Positions 3,129-58,140 of a stretch of 64,000 bases of DNA are shown piece after piece. Numbering within the stretch: position 1 is the first letter of the stretch; each line of letters begins with the position of its first letter. The DNA lies in contig CACRXP010000012.1 in the NCBI GenBank assembly GCA_902702965.1, forward strand, positions 2,424,762-2,488,761. The letters run 5' to 3'. The stretch is from Spirometra erinaceieuropaei (Eukaryota; Platyhelminthes; Cestoda; Diphyllobothriidea; Diphyllobothriidae). A program made the position numbers and the translations under genes. Under the pieces are notes generated by a model. It had not been told where the DNA came from. It did not search any database and saw only the letters and a program-made list of their open reading frames with translations.

Positions 3129-5448
3129 TGAACAAGTTATAGTGAAAAGGGTTTCGTGCGTTTGCTCCCCCTGATGACCGTCTCACTGGCTTCAGCTCCA
3201 ATTCCCAGACCTTCTTAAGAGCGTATCGATCGTTTAGCATTACTGTAGAGCGTTCATTTATACATTTCTGCATTGCAAGCTTGCGGTTTGCAGATTTAAA
3301 TGTAGTTTGTCCTATTAAATTAGGTAATTAATCGGATTTATTATTGGTCAGCTTATTTGAGGTGGAAATAGGACATTTAAACAGGCCGCCATAATAGCCT
3401 GGACACCCTTTGCTAATATCCGTTCGCCACCAAATGGCGTCCGAAAGAAGTGCGTTGAATTTACGTTATCTTTCGTTTCTTTGGTGAAGTTATCGTTCGT
3501 TATGTCCCGACTGGTGGATGGGAGAGGAGGAAGGCGGATTCGGGGGACAGTCATCGTATTCTGTCAGACTTTGTAGCAGGATCTCAAGTCGTTAAAGCCC
3601 GCACTACTTATTTGACACCTGACGGCTGTAGAACATTCTGGTCTGCGACTTGCCAGTCGGGGATTAGTCGATTTTTGCGCGAAAATCACGCCGGCCATTG
3701 ATTGGGCCGCGAGCCTGAGTAAAGGAATCATGCTTGCTACACGATGCATCCCACGCTGATTGGGTGGTTGATGCTCTGTATGCACTTCGCTGCCGACCTA
3801 GCCTGCTACGCCGTGCTTGGCCACATCTGCTCTTCGCCTTAGACAGTGACGCTACTCTACTTCTGAATATCCATCAGAGTGAGCCAACACATTCCAACGC
3901 ACAGATTGATCTCAACTACTGTCTCATACCACTTCAGGAAGCAAATTGACTCGGATGCCCGCTCGTTGATTTATGAATCCCGACACACACACACAGCAGG
4001 TTTGAGCCGCGTTGGCAGGGCGAACTGTTGTAAGGCGCGTCTAGCCTGCTTTCGTTTCCCGGCCTCTGCGTCTGTCATCTGCGACCTTTTGTGTTCTTCA
4101 GGCAGAAGTCACAATGGCATCCATTCTCATGCCCGAGTATATCTTGACGAACTTATATTCGTGGTTTGGAAGGATTGCTAACCGGCGGGATAACTCCGTC
4201 CGCAGGGAGTATTTCAAATCGACCGAAGGACTGCGACTCAGGCTTTAATGGCCCCTTCTCAATGTGGCAATTATGACACCCTAGCGAACGGGAGATCTGA
4301 GTCGTTCTTACAGTAGCCCGGTATATGTTGTCTGAACCAGGTCGTGCGTGGCACGCGTAGACGGGCTGTCAAGCTTTGCAACCACTGCACCTCCGATCGC
4401 GTTGACGTCGTCTTACCATCGTCACAAGGTGGGCGAGAGATGAGTGAGTCCGGCAGATGCCTCACTGCAGACTAATTCACGCGCAAGCCGTCCGTGCTGC
4501 GCCCATTTCGTGTGGCAGGTGGTGGGCGTCGTCGTCGTTTGCGACGATGAGGGTATTTCCAGTCACACGGGAGTGCCGTTTTTACCGACCTGTCCCTGAG
4601 ATGCCATCAGAGTGTGTATGTCCTGTCTTGTTCTGCACCTCCTCTCCAGAACCCCCCACAGGCGGCCTCGTCACTTCCAGCGCACCAAGCCCCTGTGTGA
4701 CGCAGTATGACCTGGAGCGTAACGCGACACTTTGACTCAGTTGTAGAGTGCTTGGCTCAACCGCCAAGAGACTCCGCTTTCTCACCCTGGGTTTGAGTTA
4801 TGGTTGAAAGACGACGGCGGGCATGCCATCTCTGTCGGCGATTTCTGAAAGATTTTTGTGCCGCTAAGGTTGCTGTGCAGACTCGGCCTGTAAGTAGGAA
4901 AGGACGAACCCTATTGGGAGCCCCTTTTGACTGGCGCCCAGCACTGCCTCATTCCCCTGGGCCCTTTGTCTTCATGTGGCTTTAAACGTCTTTTTCCCTC
5001 TTTGCAGTTCATCCGCCTCCTGCTGTGCACTTCACTCCGACGCCTAGGCGGCGTCTACCACCGAACGGCCTACTTCGCAGTGGAGATGAGGACTAATCAG
5101 TTGTCGCACTCCTCTCCCTCATGTCCCCAGTCTTCTCTCCTCCGCTCCCCAGCGTGCTCTCCCCGCGGCAGCACTGCCAACCTGCATTTAAAACTGGCAC
5201 CTTAAAAGGCCGTCGTCTGCATTTTGCACTCTGTCCCCAGAAGTTTTTCTTATTTTCATTAATCACCTGGAATGGCAGGACATTGTCCGCGTTTGCGGCT
5301 GCGCGTTGGCTGTCGTCTTCAAAGATATTACTGTTACTATATGAAATCTTTTGCTCATCGGTCATTGACAGCTTCATGACGGGAGGCGTGTCATGCTGTC
5401 TTCCAGTTGCCCTCTGATGGCGGAAAATATCATTTTTGGTAGGGGGGG
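3129..5448. other. No gene recognised
   Basis: Short open frames of up to about 100 codons on both strands carry no recognisable domain. Around 4,732-4,800 there is a weak tRNA-like block (A-box-like 'gactcagttgtagagtgctt', degenerate B box 'gggtttgagtt') that may be an old tRNA-derived repeat. I see nothing else. Confidence 0.4.
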
Positions 5449-5600
5449 GCGCTCACCGATCGTTGTGCTTTATGAACTCTCTCTCTCGAGCCCAACCAGC
5501 AGCCGCACAGCGGCGAATCATATAGGCAGAATGTTACTACCGACAAAGCCGTCGTCAGCCAGTCATACCCAAACCCGAGGTATGGAACACCTCGGATTCT
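5449..5600 (-). mobile_element. SINE-B fragment with half a hammerhead
   Basis: Contains the SINE-B tail (5,449-5,540, with the hairpin-forming GGGCTC...GAGCCC block) joined to the body. The hammerhead 5' half (GACTGG stem strand, then CTGACGA core) is at 5,548-5,564. The stem II 3' side, GAAA and 3' stem strand are deleted. It is a truncated copy. Confidence 0.7.
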
Positions 5601-20482: not shown

Positions 20483-20517
20483 TTCAGATTGACAAAGTTG
20501 AGAGATCCGGGAAGATT

Positions 20518-20700
20518 ATTTGAAGAAGAAAATAGGCTCTCCGGAACAGGTTTATTTAACTGCTGACGTTTCAAAGAGTTGGGTCGGCTCTTCATTGTCA
20601 AAGCGTAAAATGCACTTAATTGATCAGAAGTTTAATTTAAAGTGGCATCTTGTGTTGGTCGGCTTTATGCTGATCGACCTTTTTTCTCCTCTCGCTGCCT
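20518..20700 (-). repeat. PLE-1 terminal repeat, 3' copy
   Basis: Inverted copy of 23,081-23,264, about 95 percent identical by eye over 183 bp. It overlaps the C-terminal coding end of the RT frame (stop at 20,624). On minus it contains the hammerhead-like motif at 20,564-20,599. Confidence 0.85.
20564..20599 (-). ncRNA. Degenerate hammerhead-like motif in the PLE-1 3' repeat
   Basis: On minus: ACAATGA where CTGATGA is expected, stem II AGAG...CTCT closing a loop with CGACCC, then TTGAAAC and GTC followed by AGCAG. The layout and the GAAACGTC end match hammerheads, but the 5' core is altered, so it is probably inactive. Confidence 0.35.
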
Positions 20701-23038
20701 CAGCCTTTCGGGAGATGGTGAACGGGCGTTTTGCCTGTGTGCTTTGTGAGTCACCACTCCGTCGATTGGAGCTCCGTGAACCTCTGTCGGGCGGTCGGTC
20801 TGGCGGTTCTTGTTCTTCCTCACCGAGTAAACTCAGCGTCAGGCTATCTCCGTAGGGGTTTCTTAAGTCCGGCGTGGTTGTTTGGTCCTGAGCTCTACGA
20901 TTGTGATGACGCAGGACTTTGTAAGCTGCAGGAAGGTCCAGATGCCTGTTGATAGATTGGGCATCGGAGAACCACGCCTCGAAAGTTAGCCGTTCGGCTT
21001 TTGTGTTGCCTCGGCCTAAGATGGTAGACCTCTGGAGGTCAAAAGTATGCTCTGTTTCTCCAACATGTGTTGCTAGTTGAGAGCTAGGGTATAACCTCCG
21101 AGTGGCCGATTTGTGCTCTTGTAGGCGAGTTTGCAATTTCCGCCCAGTTTCGCCCGCATAGTTGCAGTCGCCCTCATTGCAATTTATTTTGTAAATGACT
21201 GCTGAGGTTTCAGCGGGTGGCAGTGCATCCTTGGGTTGCATCAGGCGACGTCGAATTGTTCCTTGGGGTCGATGGGCTACGCCTACTCTGGTAGGTTGTA
21301 CCAGTCGCGAGACCGCTTCAGAGACCCCTTTGACGTAGGGAATGGCCCTCCAGACTGCGGGTTGCTGCTCATTTGGCCGTCGTCTGCTTCTCTCAATGAA
21401 ATGTCTGGGATAACCATTGGCTGAAAATAGGTTCACAAGGTACAATCGTTCGGCCCTTTTATCTTCTGGCGTGCTGCAGTGTGTTTCGACTCTTTGGAAT
21501 AGAGTGCGGACACAACTACGTTTGTGAGACAGAGGATGGTTGCTGTTGAAGTGTAGGATCTGTCTCGTTTTGGTGGATTTTCGGAATACTGTAGCTTGCA
21601 GCTGTCCATTGGTACAGCGGCGCAGAAGTACGTCAAAAAAGTGGAGTTGCTTGTTTGTTTCTGCTTCCATCGTAAATTGGATATCTGGGTTAACCGAGCT
21701 CAGTAGTTCCTTTAGGTGCTCTATATCAGTTGTTTTGACAACGGCGAAGGTGTCATCGACATAGTGGGCCCAGAACTTTGGTTGATACTTGTTGAACACC
21801 AAGTGTTCTACCCGTTGAGGAACTACTTCAGCGATTAGGCCTGATATAGGGGAGTCCACAGGAGTGCCTTTTATTTGTTCGTACATCTGTCCACCGAAAG
21901 TGAAATAGGTCTTGAGACAGTATCGCAGAAGCTCGAGCAGATGCTCAGACCTCAGGGGTTTGTGTCTTTCCTCATAAAGCTCTGCCAGTGGTTGGTCCAC
22001 AACGTCTATCGCTAGTTGCCGTGGAATCGATGTGAAGAGCGAAACGACATCAAAGGATACCATGGACTCGTCTGGCTCTAACTTCAGATGTTTTATGCAT
22101 TCGAGGTATTGATACACAGATGTTACTGTTGTTGGTGAGCCTTCGGCCAAAACCTTAGGACGACCGAACATCCATTTTGCCAAACCGTACGTCGGAGTGT
22201 CACGAAGGGATACGATTGGCCTGAGTGGGACATTTGCCTTGTGTACCTTCGGTAGACCGTAAAAACGAGCCGTCGCGGTGTCAGTGGGCTTCATGGAGAA
22301 CCAGTCGTTGGGTGTAATCGCCGCCTTGGCCCTGAGATTTCTTAGGCTTTTGTTTATCCGAGTGATAAGATTTTTCATTTCGCTGGCACGGCATTATTTG
22401 TATGAATACTGGTCTGCGAGTAAGTCCTGTACCTTGTTCTGGTAATCCGATTTGTCCAGCGCAACTGTTGAACGTCCTTTGTTAGCTGGCAGAATAATTA
22501 TGTCCTTTTTTGCTTTTAGGCTTTTCAGTGCTCGCTGTTCCATATTGCTAAGAGTCTCGCACCTCTTGTGTCGCATAAACAACGAGGAGGTTTGGTGACG
22601 GATCAAATATTTCGTCTCTTCTGACGCCTTTGTTAATTGAAGAACAGATTCGAGGGCGGCGATAAACTCTGTGGGTGCGACATCTGCTGTGTTAAAAGTG
22701 GTTCCACGTTCCAGGACTGCGAGTTGTGTGTTCGTAAGGGCTTTAGATGAAAGGTTGTGGACAAGGACGCCTGACGAGTTGTCGGAGCTTGGTACTCGAA
22801 GTTTTTCCAATTTGATAGATAATTCCTTGTCTCTTTTGACACGTACTTTCTGAGCATGTCTGAGAATGGTGAGCTTTATAGCCTTCGATTCTTCACCGAC
22901 AGCTCTCCACAGATAAAACTTAGATTGGTCCATCTTTAAATTGTAGCGTTCTAGTCTTTGATGGCAATTGTGAATTAGCACTCTTGTCATTCTTCTGCCA
23001 AGTCGGGCTACAGTCTCCCTTGCCAGAGCAGAATTCAC
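20624..23038 (-). pseudogene. PLE-1 reverse transcriptase/GIY-YIG polyprotein, one in-frame stop
   Basis: One reading frame runs from about 23,050 to the stop at 20,624, interrupted only by TAA at 22,394-22,396. This gives 214 + 5 + 584 codons, close to the ~800 residues usual for Penelope-like proteins. In the 584-residue part: RPIVSLRDTPTYG (~53-65), motif A FDVVSLFTSIP with Asp110, motif B GTPVDSPISG (~171-180, where GTPMGSP is usual), motif C YVDD (206-209). The GIY-YIG domain follows: YKINC...C...YAGET (396-411), REHK-like RLQEHK (418-423) and a candidate catalytic Glu467. Cys400 and Cys405 fit the zinc-binding linker of the family. The frame opens without ATG (first codon GTG, upstream TAG at 23,048-23,050), so an upstream exon or internal Met may supply the start. 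Confidence 0.85.
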
Positions 23039-23080
23039 AGGAGGCTTCTAAGTGACGCTCGTTGGGGTCAATTGGTTGTC

Positions 23081-23264
23081 AAGGCAGCGAGAGGAGAAAA
23101 AAGATCGATCAGCATAAGGCCGACCAACACAAGATGCCACTTTAAATTAAATTTCTGATCGATTAAGTGCATTTTACGCTTTGGCAATGAAGAGCCGACC
23201 CAGCTCTTTGAAACGTCCGCAGTTAAATAAACCTGTCCCGGAGAGCCTATTTTCTTCTTCAAAT
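23081..23264 (+). repeat. PLE-1 terminal repeat, 5' copy (inverted)
   Basis: Inverted partner of 20,518-20,700. Its + strand contains 'gcaatgaagagccgacccag', then CTCTTTGAAACGTC (23,205-23,217), a hammerhead-like motif with a 6-bp stem II (AAGAGC/GCTCTT). Confidence 0.85.
23184..23217 (+). ncRNA. Degenerate hammerhead-like motif in the PLE-1 5' repeat
   Basis: GCAATGA (expected CTGATGA), stem II AAGAGC/GCTCTT perfect, then GAAAC and GTC. It is antisense to the RT frame because the terminal repeats are inverted. The 'AATAAACC' that follows parallels the sequence after the 8.1-kb motif. Confidence 0.35.
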
Positions 23265-23265
23265 C

Positions 23266-23273
23266 GAGATTTG
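23266..23273. repeat. Target-site duplication of PLE-1 (GAGATTTG), right
   Basis: Partner of 20,475-20,482. Confidence 0.7.
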
Positions 23274-23660
23274 AATTTCCACAGAGAAAATCAATATAAA
23301 CAGCAAGGCCATCCTATACTGCACGCAGATTAATCAATAAAATGGCAACTTGAATACGCAACGTAAGAAAGAAAACTGGGACGTTTGCACGCAGAGAGGT
23401 TGTACAAACCAAAGGGCTGAGATTTTCCAGAGCGAGTTCACTTTGATCTCGTGGTCTAACTGTTTACATAGATCGGGTTTCTCCCGCCGTAAGTAAGCTG
23501 CCTCCAAGTAGCGCAGTATCCGAGTGGCTCGTGCCCGAACTAATACTCGAAAAGATGTTTTGCGCTCAACAGAATGACCGTTATCGAGGAGGTGCTTTGT
23601 AATAGAAGACCGTGGAAGTTTCTTCTCCTGGCTTAGAAGCCATTTAGGCAAGAGACAATA
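23274..23660 (-). pseudogene. PLE-2 3' end: GIY-YIG domain C-terminal half and UTR
   Basis: On minus the frame reads LPKWLLSQEKKLPRSSITKH, then NGHSVERKTSFRVLVRARAT and RYLEAAYLRREKPDLCKQLD. The + copy at 46,860-47,060 has nearly the same peptide. The conserved Glu of LEAAYLRRE fits the catalytic Glu of GIY-YIG nucleases. Downstream non-coding sequence (23,274-23,340) also matches 47,150-47,250. The N-terminal part is missing: upstream of ~23,660 homology stops and an opposite-strand PLE piece begins. Confidence 0.75.
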
Positions 23661-23861: not shown

Positions 23862-24185
23862 GCCAATATCTGCCTATGTCATGCGTCGCAGTGCGCATGC
23901 TGGTTAGGCTTGAAAGAGAGCCCGTAACGCACAACGGAACGAGTGAGTTCCACGGAGTGATCGGTGAACGCCCCCTACCACTGTATATTTCCGATCGAAA
24001 CCGAAAGAGCAACGGGCTCGTGGCCCAGTGGTTAGGGGCGTGAACTTCTAACTAACAAGTCGCGAGTTCGAGCCTCGGGTGTTCCACACTTCGGGGTTGG
24101 GTATAAATAGCTGACGACGGCTAATGAGCCAGAAATGGCCATTCCAGTCTCCCTTCTCTTTGTCGGTAATAAAATACTGCCTATG
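23862..24185 (+). mobile_element. SINE-B (hammerhead SINE) insertion with target duplication
   Basis: A 324-bp insertion flanked by AAAACACT (23,854-23,861 and 24,186-24,193). Order: tail-type segment D (to 24,013), tRNA-like head (24,014-24,086) with A box (TGGCCCAGTGG) and B box (GAGTTCGAGCC), hammerhead (24,105-24,149), then a short end that returns to 'ctgcctatg'. Length and composition recall the ~330-bp Sm-alpha SINE-like family of schistosomes, which also carries a hammerhead. Confidence 0.8.
24105..24149 (+). ncRNA. Hammerhead ribozyme fold in SINE-B (stem I decayed)
   Basis: Core CTGACGA (24,111-24,117), stem II GGCT/AGCC closing AATG, GAAA, palindromic ATGGCCAT, cleavage-site U, then CCAGTC. 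The 5' strand of stem I is AAATAG rather than GACTGG, so stem I no longer pairs. The catalytic core is intact. Confidence 0.6.
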
Positions 24186-24970: not shown

Positions 24971-25146
24971 CGTGCTCATCTGCATTCATTTCAGCTACCA
25001 CTGAAAGTCCTCCCGGGAACGAACGGCACCCATTCCCGCCGATTACTCACCTACGGTCGGCTTAGGGATGATTAACAAGGGGCTCATTTCTTTGGATTGC
25101 GGCGTCCACACTTAAGCCGGCGCATGCAACAGTTCTCGTGGTAGGC

Positions 25147-25560
25147 GGCGCTCACCGATCGTTCTTACGGAACTCACTCGTCCCGTTGTGCCTTACGGGC
25201 TCTCTCTCTCGAGCCCAACCAGCAGCCACACAGCGGCGCATGATATAGGCAGAATGGCGTTACTGACAAGACAAGGGAGACTTGAATGGCCATTTCTAGC
25301 TTATTAGCCGTCGTCAGCCAGTCATACCCAACTCCGAAGTGCGCAACACTCGCGACTTTTTAGTTAGAAGTCCATGCCTCTAATCACTGCGCCACGAACC
25401 CGCTGCCCTGTCGGTTTCGATCGGGAATATACGATGGTAGAGGGCGCTCACCGATCGTTCTTATGGAACTCACTCGTTCCGTTATGCCTTACGGGCTCTC
25501 TCTCTCTCGAGCCAAACCAGCAGGCGCACAGCGACGCATGATATAGGCAGAATGCAATTA
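25147..25560 (-). mobile_element. SINE-B, tail-head-body-tail copy
   Basis: Reading minus from 25,560: segment D, tRNA-like head (about 25,330-25,405, B box damaged), body with a well-preserved hammerhead (25,279-25,323), then a second segment D ending at the usual 'gatcggtgagcgcc' point. So one head and body is bracketed by two copies of D in the same orientation. Segment D contains the hairpin GGGCTC/GAGCCC and a GGAAC/GTTCC stem. Confidence 0.75.
25279..25323 (-). ncRNA. Hammerhead ribozyme fold in SINE-B
   Basis: Stem I GACTGG with CAAGTC (five of six pairs), core CTGACGA, stem II GGCT/AGCT with one wobble, GAAA, palindromic ATGGCCAT, then U as the cleavage base. The catalytic core is intact. 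Confidence 0.65.
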
Positions 25561-25563
25561 CCG

Positions 25564-25762
25564 ATGGTAGAGGGCGCTTACTAATCGTTCTTACAGGGCT
25601 CGTGGCCCAGTGAGTAGAGGCGTGGACTTCAAACTAACAGGTCGCGAGTTCGAGCCTCGGGTGTTCCACAATTCGGGGTTGAGTATGACTATCTGACGAC
25701 GGCTAATAAGTTAGAAATGGCCACTCCAGTCTCCCTTTTCTTTGTCGGTAATAGCATTCTAA
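25564..25762 (+). mobile_element. SINE-B copy
   Basis: tRNA-like head at 25,596-25,670 with A box GGCCCAGTGAG and B box GAGTTCGAGCC, then body with hammerhead (25,687-25,731). The 33 bases before the head are an inverted scrap of segment D. It faces the copy at 25,147-25,560. Confidence 0.75.
25687..25731 (+). ncRNA. Hammerhead ribozyme fold in SINE-B (mutated)
   Basis: Core CTGACGA and GAAA are intact. Stem II GGCT/AGTT pairs through wobbles. Stem I has four pairs (GACT/AGTC). ATGGCCAC replaces ATGGCCAT, removing the U needed before the cleavage base, so cleavage is doubtful. Confidence 0.55.
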
Positions 25763-32034: not shown

Positions 32035-33600
32035 TCAGATTTTGCTGAAGATTGGGGGATCAAGTCTTGTTCTAAATATGCAAATTGTGTCAGCCGTCAC
32101 CATCTCATTGGGTAGCGAGTTCCATGGTCGGACAACCCACTGGCTGAGTGAAAACTTCCTGCGGTCTAGCCGCGTGCGTGCGCTCTCGACTTTGTAAGGA
32201 TGACCGCGTAATTCGTTTGTACTGGCAAACTCAAAAACGCCCTCCGTTCTCACTGAACAACCTTGGTCAAGGACAATCCGGAATGTCCAGAGCAGACTGC
32301 AGTTTAAGTGTCTATAGGATAGAAGGAATAAACCAAGCACATTCAACCTCTCCTGGTACGGCAAATGCTTTAGACCATCGACCATCGTTGTTCCTCTGCG
32401 CTGTACCTGTTCGAGTAGGTCGATATACTTCCTTATCCAGGGTGAAGCCGTTGGCATTCCGTCGTCCAGGTGGGGTCTTACAAAGACGCCAGAAACTCCT
32501 CCGAAGAGTTCGAGAGGAAATATTTTAAATGCACATCTGATCCGGTGTAAAGCACTTGTTGTCTTCTGGACCATCTTCCTACAGTGTTCTGATGGCATTC
32601 GATTTGTGGTCGCCCATACACCCAGATCTCTGTGTCTTTCTACATTCCCTAAGGCCGTCCCATGAGTGTTGTACTGATGTTTAGGATAGGCATTTCGGCC
32701 GGTTTGTGGGTGTAGAACCCCGCACTTGGACTTATTAAACTTTAAAAGCCATCCGTTTGGCCAAATACTCAGTTTGTCTAGGCTCGATTGCGATTTCTTT
32801 ACGTCGTCATCGCACTTGACTTCACTACATATTTTTATGTCATCCGCGAACTTGAGGGCCTCACAATCCAGTTTGCTGATGCAATCGTTCACATAAATCA
32901 GGAAGAGTAGAGGGCCTAAAACAGAAGCCTGTGGGACATCACTCTCCGCCTTTGCCCATTGCGAGGTAGATTCACTAACAACGATAGTTTTTACTCTGGA
33001 TGACAGCAAATTCCTGATCCACCTAAACATTCTTCTTTCAATTAATACATTCCAGATCTATAAAAGAAGGCTGTGTGGAACATTATCAAAGGCCTTTTTG
33101 AAGTCAAAAATATAACATCTACTGGATAACCCTTGTCTGTGGCCGTTGGCCATCTCTCGGACAAGTAAAGAACACTCGCTAGGCAGGAACGTCCTGGACG
33201 AAAGCCGTATTTGACATCAGACAGTCTTTTGTTTTTTTTCCAGGTATTCATCAGATGTCTTTTGATAATGAACTCCATTATTTTACACGAGAAACGAGTA
33301 AGACTGGCGGAACGATAATTTTCGCAGTCTGGTCGCGAAACTCCTTTATGTATCGGGGTGATGAATGCGCACCTCTATTCTTCCGGGAATTCGCCTTCTT
33401 CCGATTACTTGAAATATGTCAGGCAGAGACTCACACAATTCATTAGCAAGTTCTCGAAGTAGCTGAGCGTGGATTCCACATTTGCCAGATGTCACATCTA
33501 ACAGCCCTGTAAGCTTTAAGAAGACTTCAATACCACAACTTTCATGCGTCACGCAAATATAATTTACACACAGATTCCTTTGCCAAATTTGCTATGAGAT
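32035..33600 (-). pseudogene. CR1/Jockey-type LINE reverse transcriptase, 5'-truncated and broken
   Basis: On minus, a pre-RT segment (33,552-33,346: LRELANELCESLPDIFQVI) leads to YGFRPGRSCLASVL (about 33,205-33,160). A frameshift then leads to RT motif A, FDFKKAFDNVPHSLLL (33,108-33,061), closely followed by a TAG at 33,058-33,060. A 331-codon frame (33,030-32,035) follows, with motif B PQASVLGPLLFLIYVNDCIS, motif C KFADDIKI (FADD in place of YADD), and the thumb and C-terminal region (LLEQVQRRGTTMV; ELRGHPYKVE; SLSQWVVRPWNSLP) typical of CR1/Jockey elements. The endonuclease domain is absent. It is inactive because of the frameshift, stop and truncation. Confidence 0.85.
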
Positions 33601-34397: not shown

Positions 34398-35094
34398 AGT
34401 GTTTTTCATGGACACAGATTTTCCTACATGTTGTGAAATTCTAGCTACTGGTGGGTATACGTTTAGAGGTGGAGTGTATTCGTGGTAGCTCCCCAGTGAT
34501 GGCCTCTCCTCACTGCTGAATCAAGAAAATACCTAGCTTTGCATTTACATTCAGAGAAGCGTTATACTATTTTGACAAGACTGACAGCCTAATGTGTTCA
34601 GTCATCATGTGACAGTCCGACCGTCGAAAACGACGACGACGACGACCTCAACAGAGTGGATAGTGCAACGGTTGATAATAGGAAAAACATGCGCGGCACT
34701 CTCAAGTAGCCTCCAGTAGACTGATTTACTACAAGTTGACGATTAATGTCTGTGGAAAATTAATGCCTGCAGCCCTTTCCTCCAGCCAACCGCCTTGCTT
34801 CGACATCAAGACAATATCAGGACGACCGGGAAGTGCACGCGTACCTCTGCATACGCCAGGCTTTCATAAGATCGGCTCGGATCTCACATCAGTGAGAGTG
34901 CCATAGGGGCAATTGCAGCCTAGCTATCAGTCTTCTAATCACTCCGGAACACTCCCATGGTGTCCAAGTTATCTTGTCCGTTGATAACCTTCCAAGCCAC
35001 GACTCCTAGCGCCGCCTGATAGGCTTAAACGTGCCAGATTTAGTATACTGAGGAGGTCGTTAATTGGCTATTGGACAGATTCGTCAGTAGAATG
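34398..35094. other. No gene recognised
   Basis: Contains a (GAC)n run at 34,629-34,645. Confidence 0.4.
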
Positions 35095-35168
35095 TTATTA
35101 ACGACAAAGACAAGGCAGGCAGGAATGGCCTTTTCTGGCTTATGAGCCACCGTCAGCCAGTCATACTC
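35095..35168 (-). mobile_element. SINE-B body fragment, inverted, with damaged hammerhead
   Basis: On minus: GACTGG, CTGACGG (A9 changed to G), TGGCT/AGCCA stem II, GAAA, then CCTGCC instead of CCAGTC (35,118-35,162). It lies immediately in front of the + copy, forming an inverted pair. Confidence 0.65.
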
Positions 35169-35518
35169 AGTGAGTGAGTTCCGTAAGAACGGTCGATGAG
35201 CGCCCCTCTACCATTGGGTATTCCCGACCGAAACCGACAAGGCAACGGACCGCTGCTCCAATGGTTAGGGGCGTTGGACTTCTAACTAACAGTTCGCGAG
35301 TTCGAGCTCCAGGTGTTCCACACTCCGAGATTGGGTACGACTGGCTGATGACCGTTAGTGAGCCGGAAATGTTCATTCCAGTCTCCCTTGCCTCTGTCAG
35401 TGATGTTATTCTGCCTCTATTATGCGCTGCGGTGCGGCTGCCGGTTGGGCCTGAGAGAGAGAGAGAGCCCGTAAGGCACAACGGAACGAGTGAGTTCCGT
35501 AAGAACGATCGGTGAGCG
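35169..35518 (+). mobile_element. SINE-B, tail-head-body-tail copy with best hammerhead
   Basis: Partial segment D (35,169-35,246), tRNA-like head (35,247-35,322; A box slightly changed, B box GAGTTCGAGCT), body with a near-intact hammerhead (35,339-35,383), then a full segment D ending at 'gatcggtgagcgc' (35,518). Segment D contains a (GA)n-closed hairpin, GGGCC...GAGCCC. Minor head changes suggest an old copy although the ribozyme is preserved. Confidence 0.75.
35339..35383 (+). ncRNA. Hammerhead ribozyme, best-preserved copy
   Basis: Stem I: GACTGG (35,339-35,344) pairs perfectly with CCAGTC (35,378-35,383). Core: CTGATGA (35,345-35,351). Stem II: CCGTT with AGCCG (one mismatch, one wobble) closing AGTG. 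GAAA at 35,366-35,369. Stem III: A-U and U-A pairs over a GTTC loop (35,369-35,376). The base before stem I's 3' strand is U (35,377), the predicted cleavage point being between 35,377 and 35,378. All invariant core positions of a type I hammerhead (CUGANGA, GAAA, NUH) are present. Confidence 0.7.
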
Positions 35519-36354
35519 CTTTACCAGATTCCCCAGTTTCGACTTTAAAAAAACAATCCAAGTCGGTTCATAAACATTTTTTGGTCTCATAAATGCAACA
35601 TACGTTTCAGCTGATTCTATTCTTGAGGAAACCAGTAGTGCCGCTTGCTAATATCCACTTCTTATTGTTAGGACCGCACCTCTGAAAAAATGCTAACGAA
35701 GATGGAATATTCAGTTTAGTGGATCACAAGTGCTTGAAAGTCTCGTCAGGTTCTGACAAAACGTTGTCCATGATGAAAACTATAGAGGCATTTTAAATGG
35801 AGTATTGCTGGCGGAAGAGAAATCTACATATAATCGGCGAGTATTATTTCAAAACTAACTGGTAGGAGACTTGCTGAAGCTTTATTTAGACATGTTTGTC
35901 CACGAGGCTATTTTCATAATGCCACTTAGAGTTTGCCAAAAAGAAGTCACAGTTCAGATATCTCTCATTGTAGAGTCACGTAATATCGCCAAATACACGT
36001 TCACTTCCTATCCGTTGCCTTTGCAGAATCCTTAGCATGTTGCTGACAAGCAAAAACGTAATAAGTGCCCCCTGCAACCTACCTCGGGACTGGCATTTTC
36101 TGCATTCTCCTGGACTGAAAATTGAACAATCATAAAATACTAAGAATAACTTTTAAACAGATATCTCGTAAATAAACACCTTCTACACAGACAATAGTGT
36201 CTTCTTCTCTTCAAAGACAGCAACTGGTTTGACAGACGGGAACCAGTCTGCGAGGTTTTTAATCTTTTGAGCAAAGTTTGATGACGAACGTGGCTGTAAT
36301 TAAAGGTGAGACAGTACAAGGACAGATTATGGTTGTTTTAGTTCCCACCATTCG
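35519..36354. other. No gene recognised
   Basis: AT-rich non-coding sequence without repeat partners seen. Confidence 0.4.
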
Positions 36355-36660
36355 ATTATTCATAGGTATTTTGACAGATTTTGAATAATTCCTGTTGACC
36401 CAACTGTGAAAACCTCGGCGCCTCGGTGGGATTCGAACCCACGCAGTAAGGAGAAGGCTTTAGTACAGCCCACGCTCTAACCACTTGAGCTACGAGGCCA
36501 CGCCGGACGACGCGAGTTTAATCGCATTTTTGTCAAGTTTACCCGCCCAACCTACTGCAACGTCTGGAATCCACCAAATTGGATACAGTAACTTGGCTGC
36601 CCAAGCAGGATTTCCTAAGTACTTCACCTCGAATCCACCAAATGACTACCAGGCTCACGT
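36355..36660 (-). mobile_element. tRNA-headed SINE-A, minus copy
   Basis: The tRNA-like part (36,418-36,500 on minus) has the A-box-like TAGCTCAAGTGGTTAGAGCG and the B box GGGTTCGAATCCC. A cloverleaf can be drawn with GCCTCG/CGAGGC and GTGGG/CCCAC stems, but the variable region is 12 bases and the anticodon arm weak. The 5' extension 'gcctggtag.catttggtgg' is shared with 60,960-61,170. Confidence 0.7.
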
Positions 36661-36684: not shown

Positions 36685-36845
36685 TTGAATAATTCTTGTG
36701 ATTAAACTCGAGTCGTCCGGCGGGGCCTCGTAGCTCATGTGGTTAGAGCGTTGGCTGTACTAAAGCCTTCTCCTTACTGCGTGGGTTCGAATCCCACCGA
36801 GGCGCCGAGTTTTTCACAGTTGGGTCAACGGGAATTTGATTATTC
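36685..36845 (+). mobile_element. tRNA-headed SINE-A, plus copy
   Basis: Inverted partner of 36,355-36,660. The tRNA-like block 36,725-36,806 is nearly identical to the minus copy. It is followed by 'ttttcacagttgggtcaac', also the mirror of 36,393-36,413. The pair would fold into a stem around a ~220-bp loop. Confidence 0.7.
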
Positions 36846-56434: not shown

Positions 56435-58060
56435 GAGCTAATTACTACTTTATCTATTTGAGCAGGTTATAGCCCTACAGTCCACATACTGCCTCACTTA
56501 GATTATCACCGTCGCCAACAGTTGAGATGCAACCGCTGCAGACCGAGCCAGGGTTAATCAATCTTCATCTAGGCTTACACGGCTGACGAGTGACAGCAGC
56601 AGTGTGGTTGCGGGTAAATCCAGCCTTGGATACCTTAGGAGCGTTGAGAAACGATGGCTGTAGACCAACCATTGGCTTGCCATCCTTCAAATATGCTTCC
56701 TTAGGCCAGGAATGACGACATTATTTCTTTCTCGGCTTATTCTGCAAGAACATAGCTTCGTACAGTTAGGGAATGATCACTTTATACCTATCCTATGTTT
56801 ACCAACCTTGACAGTATTTTCCACAGCTGAAGAGCGAGCGCAGTAGGCGGTATGCGGATTAATCTACAGTAGCATACGTTCGGACACATGCGACACGATC
56901 GCTGTGGACGGACTCTTTGTCTTATGGATTATGACCATTAATTCATTAGGTCGGTAGCGATCGCAGTTGTAGGTGTGCGGCTCAATCTATGGCACCATAC
57001 CTTTGGGCAGTTGCGAAACGATCGCCGTAGACCACAGTTTCGTTTTTGAAAAAATTCTTACTCTTCTGGAATATTATCCACGCATTCGAAGGCCTCACCC
57101 ATTAAATCCCTATTACCACCTATCCCGTAAACCAGGCTGCTTTGGTTGACCGGATTTTTTGGGGGCCATCTCCCGATTGTTACCCACATGTCTGCTAGAC
57201 CACCAATGAGGAGCGCAGCGCTGTGAGCATCTGCAGGATGACAGCGGTGGGCGAGAGCAGAAGGGATGTCAGCGGCAGGAATGGAGGGGGGACACCTTAT
57301 ATCTCCACTGATACGCGGTTTCACAGGTCCCATCCTGAATTTCCGCGCAAAGTGTCTTCGATCGACTTAAACAACTCTGCCAGATACGTGGTGCCTCACA
57401 TGGCACCCCTCCGCTGAGATGCAGTACCAGTGCTCAGCGCTGTTGAAGGGTAGTGTATGAAGGCCCTGTGTGTTCCTCCTCTACTACCCCACCACTGCTG
57501 CTAAGTGGCCATGCATAGCTTGGACACTGATACCACCCTTGCTTGAGACCAAACTCGCATTATCGTTATCTAGTCCTTTCAAAAATGTCCGAAGATTCCC
57601 GGAGGTCATGTGCTTAGATGAATCATACATCAACCGACAAATTCAGTTGGATGCCGCTTACAAGAATCTCAAGGAAAAATACGAGGGTTAATAGCAACAG
57701 AACAACATGCACGCGGACGGTTTCCTGGCGCAAACGCCAAACACCTACTGGCTGTTTAAGTACGCCTAGAGTGTTAGCTGTTTTCGGCACATGTACTCTA
57801 CGTCTGAAACCACTCGAGGAACAGGCGTCGAAAATGCACACGTAAAGTCTCCTTTTTCAAAGAAGATATTTGATTTCAACACGGATATATACTACTTGTG
57901 GCTGTTTACTGCGTGAAGGACTTCAGACGCTCATGCAAAACAGGATATGCATGTCCCGTAATTCTGCCGGCGAATGCCCTCCCAGCATAATCAGTATGTC
58001 CGACCCCAGCCCAAAGGATAACGAGCTCCTCGGTAGAGAAGTGCCGCAAACCTGGGTTGG
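56435..58060. other. No gene assigned; two weak coding candidates
   Basis: A minus frame at 57,058-57,333 (91 codons; DAHSAALLIGGLADMWVTIG) and a + frame ending at 57,691 (EVMCLDESYINRQIQLDAAY then KNLKEKYEG) read like protein but match no family I recognise. No splice or neighbour evidence supports them. Confidence 0.3.
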
Positions 58061-58140
58061 TGTGATCCCGCCTGACGACGGCTAATGAGCTCGAAACGAC
58101 CATCTCATTCTTTCTTGCAGCTGTCAGTACCACTTTATCA
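58061..58140 (+). mobile_element. Divergent SINE-B body fragment with hammerhead-like core
   Basis: CTGACGA (58,072-58,078), GGCTAATGAGCT stem II region, GAAAC, then a diverged stem III and no complementary stem I strand. It is followed by the SINE-B-like 'tgcagctgtcagtaccac' end. Head not recognisable. Confidence 0.5.

Follow-up and report, generated by a model that had tools for sequence, protein, structure and literature searches.

A hammerhead-like domain with a palindromic stem III in SINE-B, a high-copy SINE of Spirometra erinaceieuropaei

Hammerhead ribozymes are recognised by the invariant bases CUGANGA, GAAA and UH. In the type I form three helices surround this core, the molecule is open at stem I, and positions 10.1 and 11.1 are paired, usually as G-C. 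Double-hammerhead cleavage has been reported for a newt satellite, avocado sunblotch viroid and Penelope-like elements. Eukaryotic double hammerheads are described as requiring a short stem III, a palindrome and a tandem arrangement (PMC6466107). Hammerheads within SINE-like elements are already known from schistosomes (PMC8490949), where the Sm-alpha and Sj-alpha elements combine a SINE-like body with a type I hammerhead. These flatworm elements are the closest known kind to the SINE described here, SINE-B of the cestode Spirometra erinaceieuropaei. The Sm-alpha-like W36.2 unit is given as 335 bp (PMC8490949), against 308 bp between tandem SINE-B domains. Compared by description rather than by letters, SINE-B differs from Sm-alpha in having no Rfam match, a stem III that is a bare palindrome, C.A at 10.1/11.1, a dispersed distribution and many head-to-head composites.

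Other known systems resemble SINE-B in part. It shares a very short monomer stem III, a palindrome and tandem motifs with the double hammerheads of the newt satellite, avocado sunblotch viroid and Penelope-like elements, as these are described (PMC6466107). Unlike them, its motif sits in a SINE with a tRNA-like head, its consensus leaves 10.1/11.1 unpaired, and it is known here from sequence and predicted folds. The W-elements of Schistosoma mansoni are repeats with an extremely short stem III and the CUGANGA/GAAA core; three W-element hammerhead candidates, with core motifs and cleavage site intact, are reported to have cleaved in vitro (PMC8490949). W-elements are satellite-like, whereas SINE-B is dispersed and unpaired at 10.1/11.1. 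Metazoan retrozymes are small repeats with type I hammerheads, also reported in platyhelminths, and their circular RNAs are described as demonstrated (PMC7229834), whereas SINE-B is described here from DNA. In Dolichopoda pDo500 the core is described as almost invariant, G10.1 and C11.1 are called conserved, and compensatory changes include 10.1/11.1 (PMC2837043); against this signature of selection, core invariance in SINE-B is weak and compensatory changes are at best weak. Among open-access titles and abstracts on hammerheads (SINEs, trematodes, Penelope-like elements, tapeworms) and on cestode SINEs, no report of a cestode hammerhead SINE was found.

The window, a stretch of 64,000 nucleotides with a G+C content of 44.3%, belongs to an assembly of 758,707,415 bases in 1932 contigs. 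A first-pass annotation had placed a hammerhead at 35339, and the letters there are as it described them: GACTGG, CTGATGA, stem II, GAAA, a short stem III and UU, followed by CCAGTC. Stem I is paired at all six positions, core and GAAA are intact, and 10.1/11.1 is C-G. Stem II is paired at three of four positions, with a C.C mismatch, and the stem III palindrome is kept at three of four. The same annotation listed five further copies with this layout and a half-copy near 5548 (-). The half-copy is present at 5547-5592 (-), and the domain sequence occurs at all five places, but the common layout does not: only the copy at 25279 (-) keeps the core together with a nearly complete stem I. Position 7, said to vary between U and C, is mainly C (33 of 50). 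The copies at 25279 and 25687, and those at 35118 and 35339, are head-to-head neighbours (Table 1). The inverted neighbour of the 35339 copy is probably an arm of the same composite; since both pairs are probably arms of composites, the six window copies probably represent four insertions. Two tRNA-Ser genes (ACT anticodon, ARAGORN) lie near this SINE composite in divergent orientation, at 36418-36499 (-) and 36724-36805 (+). A reverse transcriptase fragment lies at 32035-33057 (-); its best named matches are Spirometra erinaceieuropaei proteins, at 52% identity over 70% of the query.

Table 1. SINE-B features in the window; unit numbers are columns of the 322-column SINE-B alignment
Feature	Position	Strand	Basis	Hammerhead-like domain
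SINE-B unit, nearly complete (unit 2-316 of 322: leader, tRNA-like head, hammerhead-like domain, tail)	35205..35521	+	nhmmer unit profile, E 1.1e-93	
tRNA-like head of the 35339 copy	35247..35319	+	read by eye	
Degenerate A box (~35254-35264), B box (~35300-35310) and TTCTAAC anticodon-loop-like stretch	within 35247..35319	+	by eye	
Hammerhead-like domain, type I order	35339..35383	+	sequence read	see text
Predicted scission point, after H17	35377..35378	+	inferred from hammerhead layout	
Tail end (unit 281-318), gapless junction to leader of next unit; partial tandem	35170..35207	+	unit profile	
Inverted neighbour (unit 129-211)	35087..35169	-	unit profile	35118-35162, without A9
Tail (25437-25564) and full unit (25141-25443) in tandem	25141..25564	-	unit profile	25279-25323 (-): core intact, stem I 5/6, C.A at 10.1/11.1
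Head-to-head neighbour of 25141..25564, from tRNA-like head to near end X (unit 44-210)	25595..25761	+	unit profile	25687-25731 (+): stem I 4/6, C at 16.1
One-lap-plus copy: begins near X, runs through tail, leader, head and domain, ends at X again	23869..24184	+	unit profile	24105-24149 (+): stem I 3/6
Diverged domain relative (unit 111-199 only)	58040..58129	+	unit profile	58066-58110 (+): stem I 1/6
Internally deleted copy	5444..5600	-	unit profile	breaks off inside stem II

The evidence supports SINE-B as a dispersed SINE of high copy number that has a tRNA-like head, two 3' ends and, close to one of these, a hammerhead-like domain. The unit, aligned from best-match loci, comprises a leader, the head from about column 45, the domain, end X at column 217 (CTGCCTATAT) and a tail that runs to end Y near column 318. 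Cleavage is predicted after column 174, 43 bases before X. The best-match loci, chosen by similarity to the 35339 copy, number 39 with the window's own excluded and derive from 40 scored among 4074 first-look candidates of a DNA search. The head is likely to be tRNA-derived and degenerate, because 19 of the 39 loci have an A box with a B box no more than 60 bases behind it, Rfam tRNA matches are sub-threshold and confined to two of 16 loci (20.1 and 18.8 bits), and ARAGORN calls a tRNA in none of 39. For the 35339 head an assumed A/B box consensus was used.

Abundance was estimated from 287.6 kb of sequence without N, made up of the window, 200 kb to its left and five 10-kb stretches of other contigs. 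The repeat is dispersed according to both BLAST and profile searches. This sample, which is mostly one contig, gave 48 domain matches, or by extrapolation about 127,000 per genome (roughly 10^5). SINE-B was found in four of the five other contigs. The genome has 610 exact copies of the 45-base domain consensus, 300 on one strand and 310 on the other, against none for the reversed control; one such copy is L009:4401-4445.

There is about an even chance that the body of SINE-B, which would then resemble Sm-alpha, holds a hammerhead-derived domain acting as a dimer-type hammerhead. A lone domain would fold badly. Two domains, in one head-to-tail transcript or in two transcripts, would share a stem III of 8 bp and so form a double hammerhead, which would cut after AUU. 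Both motif-level features required of double hammerheads are present: a single stem III that is unstable and carries a palindrome, and two genomic motifs in tandem. The consensus has the CUGANGA and GAAA core, with UH before the predicted scissile bond, and allows a stem I of 6 bp, a stem II of 4 bp and a stem III of 2 bp. The whole of stem III, AUGGCCAU, is a palindrome that yields the 2-bp stem in the monomer.

Predicted folds point the same way for the consensus. A single domain folds at -12.5 kcal/mol in another structure versus -7.2 as a hammerhead, while two consensus 45-mers co-fold at -36.9 kcal/mol with both stems I, both stems II and a joined stem III. For the strict double hammerhead the prediction is -35.1; what sets the co-fold minimum apart from it is additional A-U pairing at the cleavage site. 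Dinucleotide shuffles of the co-fold average -23.8 (sd 4.85), and 8 of 500 are as low as the observed value. The double hammerhead is the homodimer minimum in 17 of 82 full-length profile matches, a set with no filter for antisense self-matches. It is not the homodimer minimum of the 35339 copy, where the stem I pairs alone are kept. Covariation in the palindrome helix is weak (0.201 versus 0.157 +/- 0.025, with 24 of 500 shuffles as high).

Same-strand tandems with a domain in both units exist at L001, L020 (308 bp apart), L052 (315) and L063 (270). L020 alone was counted clean among the four same-strand pairs within 450 bp in the sample, and it is the only tandem that comes from the unselected sample, because L001 was reached through an Rfam match and L052 and L063 through similarity. 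When the tandems of L001, L020 and L052 are folded as full transcripts, the 8-bp stem III between copies is predicted at 0.74-1.0 per pair; each also shows one stem I between copies (at best 0.56, 0.96 and 0.38) with its adjoining stem II, which makes one of the two catalytic centres. The cross-copy stem III is absent from the predicted fold of the L063 tandem, and none of the four natural tandems is predicted to form both centres at high probability. Stem I within a copy is predicted near 0 in the natural tandems, except for up to 0.27 in one L063 copy.

Alternatively, the domain may be a hammerhead captured long ago, for example from a Penelope-like or Sm-alpha-like ancestor, that is now catalytically dead and carried as a structured part of the body. 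Such a fossil is possible, if rather unlikely. It would account for the C.A at 10.1/11.1, which is the consensus and occurs in 75 of 100 copies, with C-G in 7 and 14% paired. Against a dead domain, core bases are still more conserved than the rest: identity to the consensus is 0.880 at the 11 constrained hammerhead positions versus 0.797 for the remainder of the 45 columns (46 sampled copies). In column permutations that ignore the relatedness of copies, this excess has a value of 0.0014 within 45 columns and 0.013 within 79. Among 52 copies, with those of L001 and L002 added, conservation within the domain is lowest at columns 2 and 42 of stem I (0.57, with A or G facing U, and 0.62), followed by H17 (0.65) and N7 (0.66). 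Of 32 full-length copies in the sample, 12 retain an intact core and 9 of these the stems as well; among copies from the best-match loci the core is intact in 34 of 47, 33 with stems, which also speaks against a fossil, as does a palindromic stem III that suits a working dimer.

The Rfam results favour the fossil. A covariance search at the gathering score, which had been proposed as a check on the hammerhead, returned two tRNA matches only in the window. The hammerhead model (RF00163) has no match in the window (E 10) or in 35100-35600 (E 5), none at E 10 in the consensus-identical copy or in 16 of the 39 best-match loci, and none at the SINE-B copies inside L001 440-960. Genome-wide, with 73 of 111,175 candidates scored, two matches exceed the cut-off, both outside SINE-B. 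This null is not decisive, because a hammerhead-like motif of a Penelope-like element in L021 is also unlisted, while a motif in another repeat in L001 scores 42.3 bits.

Rfam-positive type I hammerheads occur in another repeat, at L001 862-935 (-) and L002 1501-1572 (-), with 42.3 and 34.5 bits (cut-off 34). These have a very long stem II loop, and the stem III region of the L001 example, ACACGUGU, is also a palindrome. Within the window, a Penelope-like element at 20624-23047 (-) has reverse transcriptase-like motifs by eye, one stop in frame and a GIY-YIG match of 19.6 bits, below the Pfam cut-off of 22.6; its surroundings (20500-23300, -) contain inverted end repeats with a hammerhead-like stretch, read by eye, at about 20.5 and 23.2 kb. 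By eye, CTGATG...GAAACGTC stands beside Penelope-like coding sequence at L021 800-1060 (-) and L017 2600-2700 (-). The GIY-YIG match of L021 is just below the cut-off and Rfam finds no hammerhead there; L017 is Penelope-like by eye, without a Pfam match. Hammerhead-like stretches near the ends of Penelope-like elements in the same genome, as read by eye, are in keeping with a captured hammerhead.

The ends of inserted copies also favour a dead domain. The sampled unit matches number 59. Their last column falls within 190-219 in 29 cases, within 310-321 in 25 and outside both ranges in 5; 7 start at columns 44-53, the beginning of the tRNA-like head. None starts or ends at columns 170-179, the site expected from cleavage after 174, so linear self-cleavage products are apparently not what integrates. 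A circular product would hide the cleavage ends. One-lap-plus copies would fit such a product and are equally explained by tandem transcripts or template jumping. Examples are 23869..24184, with an 8-base duplication, AAAACACT, on both flanks, and L009 4374-4679 (-), whose flanks share only TATAT. Target-site duplications were looked at in these two copies.

Composites are frequent. Domain pairs no more than 450 bp apart (48 matches) comprise 8 that are head to head, 4 with a common orientation and 1 that is tail to tail. Eleven inverted composites were traced by eye, and each has one arm that stops at X and one that stops at Y; a further one, L001, starts at a contig end and was left out of the arm count. 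The X/Y arm pattern resembles twin priming, in which case X may be the preferred internal priming point.

The domain might also have nothing to do with hammerheads. On this account, which is unlikely, SINE-B has a self-complementary body (GACTGG/CCAGTC, TGGCCA, GGCT/AGCC) with a fortuitous CTGANGA and GAAA, perhaps a hairpin recognised by reverse transcriptase. The lower-energy folds of the single domain agree with it, and so does pairing across copies. In an alignment of 32 copies, two alternative structures pair 81.5% and 81.7% of cells versus 79.1% for the hammerhead, and RNAalifold favours another hairpin. The 32 are what remained of 36 after L005:2100, L005:2283, L005:6318 and L022:9200 were left out for large gaps or truncation; the L023-L027 copies were left out as well. 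Hammerhead pairing in this alignment is not above that of shuffles (78.6 +/- 0.8), and the earlier statement that substitutions in stem II often keep pairing is not borne out for the structure as a whole. Absence of covariation above shuffles also fits a fossil.

Of the outcomes that the first-pass annotation had named as refuting its reading, the lack of a hammerhead model match was observed, and the lack of covariation across copies nearly so. The 32 copies have 9 double changes versus 6.4 +/- 2.1 in shuffles, which is no clear excess; 101 filtered copies have 20 versus about 12 expected under independence, a weak one, with the largest contribution from stem II columns 16/25 (4 versus 0.8). 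Ten double changes at 10.1/11.1, mostly to A-U, had been candidates and fell to 2 once antisense self-matches were filtered.

Other results stand against a fortuitous motif. The hammerhead-invariant positions are the more conserved ones, and the dimer minimum is essentially the double hammerhead. A first descriptor, composed after the motif had been seen, has 1 match in the window versus a mean of 0.017 in 60 shuffles. The stricter descriptor requires CTGANGA and GAAA, a stem I of 6 bp, pairing at four or more of five stem II positions, a short stem III and UH. When both strands were scanned in 293 kb, to which the Rfam-selected L001 and L002 belong, it matched 7 times, always in SINE-B. Random first-order Markov sequence, 4.376 Gb of one strand, gave 19 matches, or 0.0043 per Mb of strand, and chance alone was rejected as the origin of the motif at this rate, with the caveat that this descriptor too was composed after the motif had been seen.

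That the 35339 copy alone cuts its own transcript as a single type I ribozyme is very improbable: its intact core, complete stem I and C-G at 10.1/11.1 would allow it, but an alternative fold is predicted at -12.4 versus at best -4.4 among three hammerhead forms evaluated, stem II has its C.C mismatch, Rfam gives no match, and this is one decayed copy. Nor does 35339 serve as a good example of the family; it was rejected as atypical.

The dimer-type hammerhead is thus the reading preferred here, and its parts differ in strength. Descent of the domain from a hammerhead is probable. Activity of the present consensus is doubtful, though it may exist. Because core conservation is weak and compensatory changes are at best weak, the domain is called hammerhead-like here, with a hammerhead origin probable, and is not classed as a demonstrated ribozyme. 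The first-pass annotation had proposed a flatworm hammerhead SINE that could process tandem or dimeric transcripts. The high-copy SINE, its tRNA-like head and its hammerhead-like domain stand; the hammerhead as it was stated does not, given no Rfam match, no covariation above shuffles and a consensus C.A. The proposed dimeric processing is favoured by the palindromic stem III, the existing tandems and the predicted folds, but the integrated copies sampled show no cleaved ends. In its fullest form, a SINE of about 10^5 copies would encode an active double hammerhead whose cleavage depends on dimerisation; only head-to-tail dimeric or paired transcripts would be processed, and one-lap-plus insertions such as 23869-24184 would come from circular or tandem RNA. 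This fuller scheme is tentative and somewhat unlikely.

SINE-B is a dispersed SINE with the sequence features required of double hammerheads. It can therefore be used to test whether ribozyme-dependent processing of dimers takes part in the spread of a SINE, and whether one-lap and tandem insertions originate from circular RNA. If the domain is active, Rfam-based surveys can miss dimer-type hammerheads; if it is active as a dimer, SINE-B would contain a concentration-dependent ribozyme. If it is inactive, SINE-B would be an abundant hammerhead fossil, of use in tracing how such a ribozyme decays.
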